Part shown: positions 37,797-44,195 of the stretch, in pieces
How positions within the stretch are numbered: position 1 is the first letter of the stretch
Layout: every line of letters begins with the position of its first letter
NCBI RefSeq assembly: GCF_001570405.1
Contig: NZ_BBYM01000017.1
Location: forward strand, 186,001 to 250,000
Source of the DNA: Microtetraspora niveoalba
Lineage (GTDB): Bacteria > Actinomycetota > Actinomycetes > Streptosporangiales > Streptosporangiaceae
Reading direction: 5' to 3'
DNA length: 64,000 nt
Program-made: the position numbers and the translations under genes
The notes under the pieces: model-generated
The model's database searches: none
The model's input: the letters and a program-made list of their open reading frames with translations, nothing else
Told to the model about the DNA's origin: nothing

Positions 37797-39086
37797 CTAC
37801 GCCGACTGCTCGCGAGGGCCGTGCTTCCTGGCTGTGGCGGCGCGCCGGAGCGGGATCAAAGCCGGGTTGACGCTTTCCAGCACCGTCTCTTCACTGATCA
37901 CCAGTTGTTGCACGTCGGTGCGGCTGGGGATTTCGTACATCAGCGGCAGCAGCACGTCCTCCATGATGGCCCGCAGGCCGCGTGCCCCGGTGCCTTGCAG
38001 CAAGGCCAGATCCGCGATCGCGTCCAGCGCGTCCTGGGTGAACCGAAGGTCGACACCATCCAGCTCGAACAGCCGCGCATACTGCTTGACGAGTGCGCTG
38101 CGCGGTTCGGTCAGAATCTGGATCAGAGCCTCGCGATCGAGGTCGTGCACCGTCGTGATGACCGGCAATCGCCCGACGAACTCAGGAATCAATCCATATT
38201 TGACCAGGTCTTCCGGCATGAGTGCGGACAACGAGTCGGCCTCGCCGTCCGCCTCGTCCGCCAGGCGCAGCACCGAGTTGAATCCCATCCTGCGGTGCCC
38301 GACGCGCTGTTCGACCAGCTTGTCCAAGCCCGCGAAAGCGCCCCCGCAGATGAACAGGACGTTGGTGGTGTCGATCTGGAGGAATTCCTGCTGCGGGTGC
38401 TTGCGTCCGCCCTGCGGCGGCACCGATGCCGTGGTGCCATCGAGGATCTTCAGCAGCGCCTGCTGGACGCCTTCTCCTGACACGTCCCTCGTGAGGGAAG
38501 GATTTTCACTCTTGCGGGTGATCTTGTCGATCTCATCGATGTAGATGATGCCGGTTTCAGCTTTGCGCACATCGTAGTCGGCGGCCTGGATCAGCTTGAG
38601 CAGGATGTTCTCAACATCCTCACCGACGTAGCCCGCCTCGGTCAGCGCTGTCGCGTCGGCGATCGCGAACGGCAGGTCCAGCATCTTGGCGAGGGTCTGT
38701 GCCAGCAGCGTCTTGCCTGAACCGGACGGCCCGATCAGCAGGATGTTCGACTTCGCGATCTCGACGTCGTCGCCCCCTGAGTCGATGTTGCCGGAGACGA
38801 TTCGCTTGTAGTGGTTGTAGACCGTGACCGCGAACGTCTTCTTGGCCTTCTCCTGGCCGACGACGTGCGCGTCGAGGAACTCGTAGATCTCGTGTGGCTT
38901 GGGCAGGCTCTCGGGCCGGACTTCTGAGGACGCCTCGGCTTCTTCCCCGATGATCTCGTTACAGATGTCGATGCACTCTTGACATATGTATACCCCGGGG
39001 CCCGCTATGAGTCTTTTTACCTGCCGCTGGGCCTTACGGCAGAACGAGCATTTGAGGTGGTCCTCATGGTTGTGGAGGCGTGCCAT
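37797..39086 (-). CDS. clpX: ClpX-type AAA+ unfoldase (likely accessory paralogue)
   Basis: A 429-residue ClpX that unfolds proteins for ClpP. The zinc-binding domain is intact ([16 protein letters not shown] and [10 protein letters not shown]), as are Walker A ([18 protein letters not shown]), the pore loop GYVGEDVEN, Walker B ([10 protein letters not shown]), the RKH loop ([10 protein letters not shown]) and sensor 2 ([12 protein letters not shown]). The ClpP-docking IGF loop is replaced by MGF. No clpP or trigger-factor gene is nearby, unlike the usual clpP1-clpP2-clpX arrangement, so this is probably a second copy. AAGGAG precedes the ATG. A ClpX-zinc-finger/HTH gene lies 1.3 kb away. Confidence 0.9.
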
Positions 39087-40408: not shown

Positions 40409-40780
40409 TCACTCCTCGCCGGAGAACCGCTCCCACGCGGACTGGCGGGTGATCCCGAGGGCTTCCCCGATCCTGACCCAGGTGACGCCCCGTCGGCGCA
40501 GTTCCTGCACCCACGAGCGCAGGTCAGCCTCGGCCTGGTCTATGTGCGCGGCGACGCGCGGAATGTGGTTCAGCATCTCCTCGTCGGTCAGCGACTCCCA
40601 CATGGGCACGCGCGGGCCTGCGGGGCTCTTGACGCCGCCGTTGATGATCGACGCCGACAGAGCCACGCACTCGTTGCAGATGTACACCCCAGGACCGGCG
40701 ACCAGCCTGTCGACCTCGGTGGCCGGCTTGCCGCAGAAGGAGCACCGAGCGAATTCGGTCAGGGTGTCAGGCGGTGTCAC
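40409..40780 (-). CDS. ClpX-type C4 zinc-finger protein with C-terminal helix-turn-helix
   Basis: A 123-residue protein. Residues 11-45 are a ClpX zinc-binding domain ([20 protein letters not shown], then [13 protein letters not shown]: CxxC and CxxC). Residues 70-120 form a helical region ending in a helix-turn-helix-like segment ([20 protein letters not shown]). It lacks the AAA+ domain. Such proteins may dock to ClpX or partners through the zinc domain while binding DNA. The GTG at 40780 is used. Two near-identical palindromes (40797-40815 and 40825-40841) lie directly upstream, pointing to autoregulation. Confidence 0.85.
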
Positions 40781-41263: not shown

Positions 41264-42088
41264 TCAGCGCCGCGGCAGCAGGTTGCAGGCGTTCGCGCCG
41301 GCCACCGAGCGGTTGGCGAACATGCCGAGCCTGACCAGCGGTTCGCGCGAGGTCGTGCGCTCGACGTGGAGGAACCCGGCCAGTAGCAGCACCGCCGCCG
41401 CCAGGGTCGACAGCGTGACCGGGGACGCCCAGCCGTACTGCTCGGTGCGGACCACGCCGAAGACCAGCAGGCCCATGCCCGCCGTCGCCAGCACCGCGCC
41501 GAGGACGTCGGGGCGGCCGGTGCGGGCGGCGGGCGCGCCGCCCGCGACCCCGCGCCAGGCCAGGACCAGCGCGAACGCGGCCATCGGGACGTTGACGAAC
41601 ATCACCCAGCGCCAGCCCGCGTACTCGGTGAGCAGCCCGCCGATCAGCACGCCGAGCGCGCCGCCGGCGGCGTTCATCGCGCTCCACACCCCGAACGCGC
41701 GCACCCGGGCCCGGCCCGAGGGGAACGCCTCGGTCAGCAGCGCCAGCGCGGCCGGGGCCAGGGCGGCGGCCCCGACGCCCTGCGCGGCGCGGGCGGCGAC
41801 GAGCTGACCGGCGGTCCCGGCGAACCCGCCGGCCAGCGAGGCGAGGCCGAACAGCCCGAGTCCGAGCAGCAGCACCCGCTTGCGGCCGTAGCGGTCGGCC
41901 GCCTTGCCGCCCAGCAGGAGCAGCCCGCCGAACGTGAGCGCGTAGGCGTGGATCACCCAGGTGAGGCCGACCTGGCCGAAGCCGAGCCCGTCGGCGATCT
42001 GCGGCAGGCCGACGTTCACGACGGACAGGTCCAGCGAAACCATGAACTGCACAACGGCCGCGGCCGCCAGCGTCGACTTTTGGAACAT
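41264..42088 (-). pseudogene. MFS drug transporter (EmrB/QacA type), truncated
   Basis: The first 274 residues of a 14-helix DHA2-type exporter. Motif A is LLGGKAADRYGRKRVLLLG, motif C-like sequence is present, and eight to nine helices can be counted (STLAAAAVVQFMVSLDLSVV to LAAAVLLLAGFLHVE). After GMFANRSVAGANACNLL the frame stops at 41264, with remnants continuing in another frame, so roughly the last five helices are lost. The ATG at 42088 has GAGG upstream. It is divergent from a broken TetR gene that probably controlled it. Confidence 0.78.
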
Positions 42089-42094
42089 GTTCCG

Positions 42095-42324
42095 AACCTC
42101 TTCCGCGGCCTCTGGTACTACACCGTCGGCGAGATCCTCGTCCGCGCCCACTCCCGCCGCGACCGCCCCGCCCCCGACGGCCCTTCCTGGGCGACCTCGA
42201 TGCCGACCTGCCCCACCTGGAGGCGATCGGCGCGAGGTGGCCGGGGCTGGCGGCGCGCGACACCTACCGGCAGGGGCTGGCGGCCTTCGTCGACGGCCAC
42301 CTCGCCCTGGCCACGCCGCGCTGA
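42095..42324 (+). pseudogene. TetR family regulator, C-terminal remnant
   Basis: The ligand-binding half of a TetR regulator: LFRGLWYYTVGEILVRAHSR, a frameshift at about 42183, then DLDADLPHLEAIGARWPGLA and AFVDGHLALATPR with the stop at 42322. The DNA-binding N-terminal domain is gone. It sits back to back with the truncated MFS exporter, the classical TetR/efflux arrangement. Confidence 0.6.
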
Positions 42325-42493
42325 TGGCGCCGCGCTTCGCCGTCCGCGAGGGGTACGCGCTCCACCGCGGCCCGGTGACGGACGGCGGCGCGCATCGGCA
42401 CGCGGCCTTCCAGATCGCCATCGCGCCCCGGGGCGAGGTGGTCACGCGGGACGCCTCCGGAGACCTCCACCGCGCCGAGGCGCCGGCTCGGCT
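42324..42493 (+). pseudogene. AraC-type regulator N-terminal fragment
   Basis: An ATG overlapping the TetR stop begins FAVREGYALHRGPVTDGGAH then RHAAFQIAIAPRGEVVTRDA, resembling the cupin-like sensor domain that starts some AraC regulators. Similarity ends at about 42490, where the convergent rRNA methyltransferase gene begins, so the gene is truncated to about 55 residues. Confidence 0.4.
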
Positions 42494-43612
42494 TCAACCG
42501 CGGACGGGCATGACAGGGATCAGTTCCGTGTCGCCAGGGGCGGCGATCATCGGGTTCGCCGCGAGGTACCTGGCGTGGAGTTGACCGCAGGCGGCGTCGA
42601 TGCCGGTGCCGAACTGCCGTCGCCGCGTCGCATGCACACCGCGGGAGGTGAGGCCGCGCACGAACTCGTCTACTCGGGTGGTGGACGGGGCGCGGTAGTC
42701 CGGTGACGCTCCTGCCGCCTCGTTGTAGCGGATGACGTTGACGTGGAACAGCTCGGGCCGGGACCGCGCGTGAACCAGTTCGGCGAGAGCGGCGAGATGG
42801 TCGTCGCTGTCGTTGACGCCGGCGATGAGCAGGTAGGCGAGGTAGACCTTCCGTCGGCTCTCGGCGGCGTGCCGATCGAGGATGTCGAGGTTCTGTGTGA
42901 GCGGGAAACGTTCCTCGATCGGGATGATGCGGGCACGTTCCTGCGCGAACGGCGAGTGCACGGACAGGGTGATCGTCACCTGCGGGTGCTCGTTGGCGAG
43001 GCGGGTGAGGTTCGGCGCGAACCCCACGGTGGACACGGTCACTCGTCGCGCGGACATCCCGGCGTAGCCCGCGCCTGTCAGCAGGGTGAGCGCGTCGAAC
43101 ACGTGAGGGTTGGCGAGCGCCTCGCCCATCCCCATGAACGCGACACTCGCCGGCCGGGGCAGCCCGTTGCGAGTCCAGTGGGGGTGCATCACCTGGGCGA
43201 CGATCTCGTCGGCACTGAGGTTGCGGACCAGGCCCACCGCGCCGGTGGCGCAGAACGTGCAGCCCAGGCCGCAGCCCGCCTGCGACGAGATGCACATGGA
43301 GTCCCATCCGGCCCGATAGTGCGACACGACGGTCTCGATGCGGGCGCCGCTCTCCGAAGCGAACAGCACCTTCTCGACTTGTTCGTCCCGTTGGACGTTC
43401 AGTGGAGTCAGGGGATGCAGCCGTGGACCGAATCGTTCCGCGAGGTCGGCACGCAGTGCGGCCGGCAATGCATGGACGTCCGCGAAGGCCTCGGCCGTCG
43501 AGCTCTGCCATGCGGCGATGAGCTGGCGGAACCGAAACGCGGGGGCTCCGGTCTGTTCGAGATGGTCGCGAATGCGCATCCAGCGGCTCCGCGTGGTCAG
43601 GACGACGCTCAC
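42494..43612 (-). CDS. cfr-like: Cfr-type radical-SAM 23S rRNA A2503 methyltransferase
   Basis: A 372-residue radical-SAM methyltransferase acting on A2503 of 23S rRNA. The iron-sulfur motif is CGLGCTFC (CxxxCxxC) in [20 protein letters not shown], and the catalytic Cys lies in [17 protein letters not shown]. Several positions follow Cfr (C8 methylation, resistance to phenicols, lincosamides, oxazolidinones, pleuromutilins and streptogramin A) rather than Rlm[11 protein letters not shown] instead of FMGMGEPLxN, [20 protein letters not shown], and FHVNVIRYN. The GTG at 43612 overlaps the stop of a ribosomal protein L32 gene. The activity is inferred from motifs; an unusual RlmN is the alternative. 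Confidence 0.87.
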
Positions 43613-43800
43613 GCGTCACCCCCCGTCGGGGGCAGGACCTCGCGGCCCCGATAGAAGCCGCAGTGCCGGCATGCTCGGTGCGCCGGGGTGGGCTTGCCGC
43701 AGGCGGGGTTCGTGCAGATGGTGAGCGTCGGCGCGCTCGCCTTCCAGTGGGCGCGACGGTGACGGGTGCGGGAACGGGGCGTGCGGTGCTGCATGGCCAC
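43609..43800 (-). CDS. rpmF: 50S ribosomal protein L32, paired-cysteine form
   Basis: A 63-residue L32. The basic N-terminus [19 protein letters not shown] matches the family, followed by a zinc ribbon [18 protein letters not shown] and the end [11 protein letters not shown]. The first Cys pair is C-x4-C instead of the usual C-x2-C. GTG at 43800 aligns best with the family start (GAAAGG upstream); ATG at 43794 is an alternative. The stop overlaps the Cfr-type methyltransferase GTG (GTGA), so the two are translationally coupled. L32 genes normally sit elsewhere, so this is probably a second, specialised copy. Confidence 0.82.
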
Positions 43801-44135
43801 GGCCTTTCGCGAGTGGTTGCGAATGTCAGCGGAGCTGACGGGACAACCGACCACGGGCCGTGAGTCGATGCGGCGAGAGATCGATCCCGATGACCGGAAC
43901 GCCACCTGCGTGAGGCACCAGGGCGCTGCCCGAGTGCCGGGCGAAGGGGGGACGGGGAACGGGCAGGATCGAGGTCGCGCGCGTTCGCAGGCACGAACTC
44001 AAGACCGAGGTCGGTGCGGTGCGAACGTGCCGGCAAGGTTCACGCAGAGGTGTCAACGCCTTGGAGGAGCGGACTCACGCTACTGCGTCAGGAGAACGGT
44101 CATTCACCGGTGCGGGCATCGCCCACACGCGTGAA

Positions 44136-44157
44136 AGCCACCGGCAGTTCGGTGGCT
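44136..44157 (-). promoter_or_regulatory. Leader hairpin (possible attenuator)
   Basis: AGCCACCG (44136-44143) pairs perfectly with CGGTGGCT (44150-44157) around a six-base loop. On the minus strand the 5' arm begins in the last bases of the 8-codon leader ORF. Its 3' arm could instead pair with CACCGG inside 44105-44112, giving two mutually exclusive structures. No U-tract follows. Confidence 0.5.
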
Positions 44158-44182
44158 AGATTCTGTCGACCTCGATCTCCAT
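44156..44182 (-). CDS. Putative leaderless leader peptide MEIEVDRI
   Basis: An 8-codon ORF with stop TAG, 356 bases upstream of the L32 gene. TAGGTT, a good actinobacterial -10 (TANNNT), ends 7 bases before the ATG, so the transcript would start at or next to the A of ATG. The last codons overlap the hairpin at 44136-44157. Short leader ORFs of this kind control many ribosome-targeting resistance genes by ribosome stalling; here this is inference. Confidence 0.45.
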   Translation of the reverse strand: MEIEVDRI

Positions 44183-44195
44183 GACACCCAACCTA

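Follow-up and report, generated by a model that had tools for sequence, protein, structure and literature searches.

Two overlapping genes of Microtetraspora niveoalba, one for a Cfr-family methyltransferase and the other for a second ribosomal protein L32, most probably (at roughly 60%) form a transferable, attenuation-controlled operon for ribosome protection against peptidyl-transferase drugs, in which methylation of A2503 would be combined with an alternative bL32. Both genes lie in the window, by which the whole stretch of 64,000 nucleotides analysed here is meant. Comparison of sequences supports the kinship of the enzyme with the Cfr side of its family, the linkage of the two genes, the coding conservation of L32 and of a leader mini-ORF, the covariation of the hairpins that follow this mini-ORF, and the sharing of the leader with ABC-F genes.

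The gene pair and its surroundings

Both open reading frames are located on the minus strand where the earlier note had placed them, and the overlap that it described was confirmed, the GTG start of the methyltransferase (43612) sitting within the GTGA that closes the L32 gene (43609-43612). By position, the same 4-nt overlap is found in 12 of the 13 loci that have a directly upstream L32, while 3 nt separate L32 from cfr in L036. In L047, the 5' end of cfr is out of frame in the alignment, and this locus was excluded from the dN/dS analysis of Cfr.

Table 1. Features of the locus, with positions numbered from the first letter of the window
Feature	Position	Strand	Basis
Extended -10, TAGGTT preceded by TG	44190..44195	minus	TAnnnT box scan of 28 leaders
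Mini-ORF, ATG GAG ATC GAG GTC GAC AGA ATC TAG (MEIEVDRI-stop)	44156..44182	minus	conserved in leaders
Hairpin H1, 7 bp, beginning in the mini-ORF stop codon	44137..44156	minus	22-sequence alignment
Hairpin H2, directly after H1	44103..44135	minus	22-sequence alignment
Hairpin-forming stretch just before the rpmF ribosome-binding site	43815..43848	minus	13-locus upstream alignment
rpmF paralogue, 61-aa bL32, ATG start, four zinc cysteines	43609..43794	minus	ORF, profile scores, dN/dS
Cfr-family radical-SAM methyltransferase, 372 aa, GTG start	42494..43612	minus	ORF, profile scores, tree

The nine neighbouring ORFs scanned encode a cut-short MFS transporter, a TAP-like hydrolase, a zf-C4_ClpX protein, a hexapeptide acetyltransferase, a ClpX-type ATPase, a MarR regulator, one unmatched product, a BTAD/TPR SARP-type regulator and a P450. 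No biosynthetic cluster is evident among these nine, and self-protection of a producer, one of two purposes proposed in the earlier note, finds no support in them. The transporter ORF, downstream of cfr (41264-42445), matches positions 2-249 of 347 of its Pfam model and looks cut short, and the small zf-C4_ClpX protein (40409-40780) is encoded near the full ClpX-type ATPase (37797-39086), which has the same zinc finger.

The methyltransferase belongs to the Cfr side

The enzyme scores 385 bits against the Cfr model TIGR04432 (curated cut-off 550) and 233 bits against the RlmN model TIGR00048 (curated cut-off 290), and all three curated Cfr cut-offs are missed (385 vs 550, 383 vs 468 and 380 vs 530 bits). 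Because neither a Cfr nor the RlmN cut-off is reached, naming the enzyme from score alone would be unsafe. The genome's own RlmN shows the reverse pattern, with 321.8 bits against RlmN, over the cut-off of 290, and 221 against Cfr; the separate rlmN lies elsewhere in the genome (8.47 Mb, 98 contigs), and its product is 38% identical to the window enzyme.

A phylogeny, which the earlier note had named among the checks on its assignment, places the protein outside RlmN: in a 39-protein tree (IQ-TREE), from which a Devosia fragment was left out, the 14 RlmN-side rows are split with support of 100/100 from three known Cfr proteins together with the window protein and its 21 actinobacterial relatives, and the 22 actinobacterial Cfr-like proteins form one group, likewise at 100/100. 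Long branches and uneven composition in some of the 39 rows drew a warning from the program, so no use is made of the order in which Cfr, Cfr(C) and Cfr(D) branch. The CX3CX2C cluster motif and the two catalytic cysteines are present, C107, C114, C118, C121 and C342 being invariant in the 17 relatives aligned; the roles of these cysteines in Cfr are described in the accessible text of PMC4689488. Ten alignment columns separate the two sides, defined as those in which the three known Cfr proteins agree and at least 70% of 13 RlmN-side rows share another residue. At 8 of these columns the window protein matches Cfr, at 1 it matches RlmN and at 1 it matches neither, which bears out the claim of Cfr-like residues at several diagnostic positions. 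Judged by tree and residues, the window enzyme belongs to the Cfr side, apart from RlmN, and would presumably methylate A2503 at C8. That the pair could be the housekeeping copies of rlmN and rpmF was rejected, as the genome has a separate rlmN and two other rpmF genes.

Linkage and distribution of Cfr-like loci

Twenty-two Cfr-like loci were compared, comprising the window, 17 loci from named records, and G025, G221, G217 and G368; G118 and G038, which have the same identities as L036 and L037, were not counted beside them. The survey of rpmF-methyltransferase neighbours that the earlier note had proposed gives an L32 gene nearby in 15 of the 22 actinobacterial loci, intact in 14 and decayed in 1. 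This gene is directly upstream in 13 loci, one of which (L044) is the decayed case, lies 150 nt upstream of the Cfr-like gene in G025, and stands about 80 nt downstream of cfr in G221, where the order is leader-cfr-L32. An adjoining L32 is absent from seven loci (L045, L046, L048, L049, L050, G217 and G368); in L045 only the first six L32 codons are left, fused to cfr, and in L046 an unrelated short ORF occupies the place of L32. Because L32 is decayed, reduced or absent in several loci, Cfr can persist without it, and L32 is, by this pattern of decay and loss among relatives, not indispensable to the Cfr-like gene. The reading of a Cfr-type enzyme and a second L32 as one cassette nevertheless stands, because the enzyme lies outside RlmN, other copies of both genes exist in the genome, and the pairing is kept across several actinobacterial families; what the earlier interpretation overlooked was the leader and the ABC-F partner.

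The Cfr-like clade is uncommon, being found in 4 of 394 class genomes (E 1e-90) and in 4 of 200 family genomes (at least 58% identity), with the window genome included in both counts. In the 39-protein tree, Amycolatopsis groups with Microtetraspora (98/89) and one Streptomyces with Microbacterium (97/92), and this mixing of families suggests horizontal transfer. Carriage of the pair by plasmids was considered and rejected: 246 plasmid records match, all at less than 60% identity, the closest plasmid proteins among the matches listed are Cfr(D), Cfr and Cfr(C) at 40-42% identity, and plasmid DNA matches to the pair are partial (6 records). Carriage by phages was set aside as well: among the viral contigs matching its patterns there was no relative of the enzyme, nor was there a leader match. 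A separate L32-profile search of the 394 genomes (E 1e-16), excluded from all counts given here, matched 48 genomes, from which 30 loci were kept; the seven of these that were inspected comprise four housekeeping loci, two of another paralogue in one family, and G221. For one housekeeping locus the next two genes, ribonuclease III and Fpg, were confirmed, and the others were judged by eye.

A conserved leader with a mini-ORF and covarying hairpins

Well upstream of rpmF, the 13-locus upstream alignment contains a conserved block, the window mini-ORF starting 388 nt before the rpmF start. This leader is made up of a promoter element, a mini-ORF 7-9 codons long whose EVDRx end is followed by a stop, and then hairpins. 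When the 4-12 nt ahead of the mini-ORF start were searched for a TAnnnT box, its distance was 7 nt in 21 leaders, 6 nt in 4, 9 nt in 1 and 10 nt in 2 (28 leaders), and TG precedes it in 25 of the 28. In the window leader, a sigma-70 scan requiring a -35 found no consensus -35. Such spacing between a -10 and a start codon is expected of a leaderless start, and the window mini-ORF is probably leaderless.

Among the EVDR codons of 27 leaders, departures from the commonest codon amount to 12 that are synonymous and 2 that replace an amino acid conservatively. The search pattern leaves room for little else, but 17 of the 27 leaders come from loci chosen by cfr. The conserved Arg codon is AGA in 24 of the 27 (44162-44164 in the window), even though AGA accounts for 4 of the 427 Arg codons across 16 window ORFs.

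Over the 22 sequences, 99.4% of H1 cells are paired, and two of the seven pairs change on both sides; the two helices of H2 have 75.5% and 77.3% of cells paired, with two-sided changes in 9 of 11 pairs. In H1 and H2 together, 26 cells are changed on both sides, a value that none of 500 shuffles and no slid version attained, although here and in the refolding test the remaining relatedness and the folding tendency of GC-rich RNA may inflate the counts. The alignment of 22 rows left out L048, L049, G221, L143, L153 and L155, which have other hairpin sequences. Predicted folding of the window leader exceeds in stability that of 100 shuffled versions (z -3.95). In folds predicted with the 5' arm of H1 masked, three or more bases from the H1 3' arm region find partners far downstream, beyond H2, in 20 of the 22 sequences, a figure without a null control. 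A classical antiterminator, pairing the H1 3' arm with the H2 3' arm, is not clear in the predicted folds, and the window leader has no intrinsic terminator with a U run. U runs are often missing in high-GC actinobacteria. A search of Rfam yielded no credible match for the leader, its one match being at chance level and on the other strand. Taken as a conserved short coding ORF followed by covarying hairpins, the leader would fit the class of mini-ORF attenuators.

Genes behind the leader

The leader stands before 18 of the 22 Cfr-like loci, that of G221 being a variant, MSTPIADRA-stop, spotted by eye; none was recognised before the Cfr-like genes of L050, G217 and G368. In G025 (L009:802-1326), L32 and the Cfr-like gene lie behind a different mini-ORF, MLAHRRPAAQYAV-stop. 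A pattern made of the mini-ORF end and the H1 start matched 8 of 394 class genomes, with 1 match for the reversed control, and the mini-ORF-only pattern matched the same 8, again with 1 in the control. These eight genomes are that of the window and seven in which an ABC-F gene follows the leader. The full order leader-L32-cfr-ABC-F is found in six Cfr-like loci (L037, L038, L040, L042, L044 with its decayed L32, and L051), and L047, noted beside them, retains a piece. For the relatives' ABC-F proteins the best family is the ribosomal-protection family NF000355, with 314-324 bits in 4 of 4 tested, under the cut-off of 380. The window genome has no close copy of this ABC-F gene, the best match being 45%.

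In one of the seven genomes with an ABC-F gene behind the leader, remnants of a decayed L32 and of the Cfr C-terminus lie between leader and ABC-F at L104:1501-3024; read from these remnants, L104 is a fossil of the three-gene operon.

Among 199 Streptomyces genomes the leader pattern gave three matches. At L153:1495-2058 an L32 paralogue follows the leader MLIEVDRA-stop, with no cfr in the 1.5 kb examined and no ABC-F gene nearby. L154 was dropped, its match being a chance one inside a coding gene. At L155:1495-3019 the leader MIIEVDRL-stop, with a stop-overlapping hairpin seen by eye, lies 500 nt before a cytochrome P450 gene (PF00067, 78 bits). An rpmF paralogue is also carried by two plasmid records of Streptomyces anthocyanicus, and on the large plasmid the leader MLIEIDRV-stop (L143:5711-5750) precedes it by 279 nt (L143:6003-6176), with no cfr or ABC-F annotated within 6 kb of this leader and rpmF (one plasmid record). 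L32 thus occurs behind this leader without cfr in Streptomyces. Just upstream of the plasmid leader and rpmF is a gene for a class I SAM-dependent methyltransferase (L143:4499-5635), which has weak PrmC/MTS-type matches.

Since the same leader also precedes ABC-F protection genes, specialised translation, the other purpose proposed in the earlier note, appears less likely than inducible resistance.

Proposed mechanism

To the features described above, the operon model adds a presumed leaderless start, induction by a drug, an RNA switch, C8 methylation, incorporation of L32 and a presumed class of drug. Transcription would start from the extended -10 promoter at, or beside, the first base of the mini-ORF. 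Slowed by the drug as it approaches the end of the mini-ORF, a ribosome would sit over the 5' arm of H1, a hairpin whose first bases belong to the stop codon; the leader RNA would then refold, and transcription or translation would continue into rpmF and then, by coupling, into cfr. Sensing near the stop fits, because the distance from EVDRx to the stop is conserved while the front of the mini-ORF varies; the stalling and switching step itself is modelled on the known mini-ORF attenuators of ABC-F genes. The Cfr-family enzyme would then methylate A2503 of 23S rRNA in new subunits, and the alternative bL32 would be built into the same subunits. There it might aid the folding or work of subunits with an altered peptidyl-transferase centre, or add to drug exclusion. 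L32 presumably reaches towards the drug site; no figure for the distance from bL32 to A2503 was found in the papers examined.

Points against the operon reading are the missed curated Cfr cut-offs, the decay or absence of L32 at several Cfr-like loci, the lack of a U-rich terminator and of a credible Rfam match, the different mini-ORF of G025, the three loci in which no leader was recognised, and the single leader that stands before a P450 gene. A wider proposal, which we hold tentatively and at somewhat less than even odds, is that the variant bL32 with its ribosome-sensing leader is a dedicated drug-inducible resistance factor: cells exposed to a drug would swap it into their 50S subunits, in some Streptomyces by itself and in other actinobacteria in combination with A2503 methylation and ABC-F.

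The L32 paralogue and alternative explanations

The window L32 scores 66 bits against TIGR01031 (cut-off 22.6) and 65 bits against PF01783 (cut-off 21.3); it has an L32 domain with a zinc ribbon, in which all four cysteines are present, and at the N-terminus it falls three residues short of the housekeeping L32. The two other rpmF genes in the genome encode an ordinary zinc-type protein (82 bits) and one with a partial score (36.5 bits) that lacks the zinc motif. Comparison with the window copy gives a dN/dS of 0.08-0.40 for 11 relatives and of 0.54 for the decayed gene of L044 (n=12), and on this measure the cassette L32 is a real protein, under purifying selection outside L044. In the L32 tree, built from short sequences and with 11 of its 21 inner forks under 80, a clade (99/95) unites two leader-controlled Streptomyces L32s with the 12 intact copies that lie directly upstream of cfr; it is nested in a larger group (99/96) from which six rows of housekeeping type are excluded. 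The L32s of G025 and G221, which are extended at the N-terminus, fall outside the 99/95 clade.

Cfr acts on unassembled rRNA. One might suppose, accordingly, that the cassette L32 has the same function as the housekeeping protein and simply adds to the amount available when ribosomes are made anew under drug stress, a need that would arise if only unfinished 50S subunits are open to Cfr. It would suit this explanation that in E. coli defective 50S precursors are marked by the absence of uL22 and bL32, as given in the accessible text of PMC11723945. However, the cassette and leader-controlled L32s stand apart from the housekeeping L32 (99/95) and have a shorter N-terminus, and a separate clade together with a shorter N-terminus indicates a distinct role, so that mere supply is regarded as unlikely.

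The L32 ORF might also serve as a vehicle of translation and no more: through its initiation region and the overlapping stop it would pass ribosomes on to cfr, and the protein itself would be unimportant. The 4-nt overlap in 12 of 13 loci would agree with this, as would L044, which lacks most of the zinc cysteines and yet has frame and overlap intact, and L045, with its six L32 codons fused to cfr; in such decayed loci the overlap may have preserved the L32 ORF as a vehicle. Elsewhere, however, L32 is under purifying selection (dN/dS 0.08-0.40), and because L32 is found behind the same leader without cfr, and in G221 lies downstream of cfr, which it is there unable to feed, coupling accounts poorly for the cassette L32, and this explanation is considered quite unlikely.

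The enzyme, for its part, might be a divergent one with another product (m2A2503 or a modified tRNA) and no resistance determinant, as the scores under the curated Cfr cut-offs and the 2 of 10 separating columns that are not Cfr-like would allow; but the tree places it with known Cfr, the genome already has its own RlmN, and leader and operon are common to ABC-F protection genes, which together make this very doubtful. Hardly credible is the usual zinc-limitation replacement, for which rpmF is mentioned in Actinobacteria Zur regulons (PMC2823685 and PMC6103462), since four zinc cysteines are kept in the 12 intact directly upstream copies and the cysteine-poor L32 sits elsewhere in the genome; a zinc-sparing role was rejected for the window L32, which retains all four.

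Implications

Resistance to ribosome-targeting drugs is known to arise through rRNA methylation, drug-displacing ABC-F proteins and efflux. If the operon model is true, a further mechanism would be added, the dedicated replacement of a core ribosomal protein under the control of a drug-sensing leader; ribosome heterogeneity would become testable in a small cassette, and actinobacteria would be marked as holders of inducible Cfr-family operons. The findings suggest that the swap of a ribosomal protein may form part of a switchable antibiotic defence, and the leader gives a short motif by which other such operons can be found.

Comparison with known systems

In the open-access literature no description of an L32-Cfr pair was recognised, in agreement with the earlier note, which knew of none; subscription papers lay largely outside this scope, and the pair may be in print elsewhere. 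Actinomycete relatives of cfr have already been published (PMC11047308, in whose accessible text 'L32' does not occur), and a near mention is the rpmF duplicate among the core genes of one producer (accessible text of PMC9290621).

Cfr, Cfr(C) and Cfr(D) share with the window enzyme the same side of the tree (100/100), the same cysteines and 40-42% identity, whereas the window enzyme falls in a separate actinobacterial clade, below the curated cut-offs, and adjoins L32 behind the conserved EVDRx-stop leader. Co-location of an A2503 methyltransferase with an ABC-F gene is likewise seen where cfr stands beside lsa ABC-F genes on mobile elements (PMC10201436, accessible text), but a ribosomal protein gene is added here, and the window copy lacks the ABC-F gene. 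WblC/WhiB7 provides a case of drug-dependent change of ribosome proteins in actinobacteria (PMC7157823); the changed proteins there, however, are ribosome-associated factors, and neither 'L32' nor 'rpmF' appears in the accessible text of that paper. The cysteine-free L32 paralogues of Actinobacteria are also products of a second rpmF, and the window genome has one elsewhere, whereas the cassette L32 retains its zinc cysteines and adjoins a Cfr-family gene.

Closest to the leader are the mini-ORF attenuators known before ABC-F genes in Streptomyces, Clostridia and Bacilli (PMC10201436 and PMC12421871, accessible parts). The attenuators of lmrC, are5sc, tiaA, cplR, vmlR and whiB7/wblC likewise combine a short upstream ORF with RNA hairpins and, as far as the accessible texts describe them, precede a ribosome-protection or resistance-regulator gene (PMC10201436, PMC12421871, PMC10727445). 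In contrast to these, the window leader has a different peptide, a hairpin that begins at the stop codon and a promoter that abuts the start codon, and one leader of this type serves L32, Cfr and ABC-F genes.
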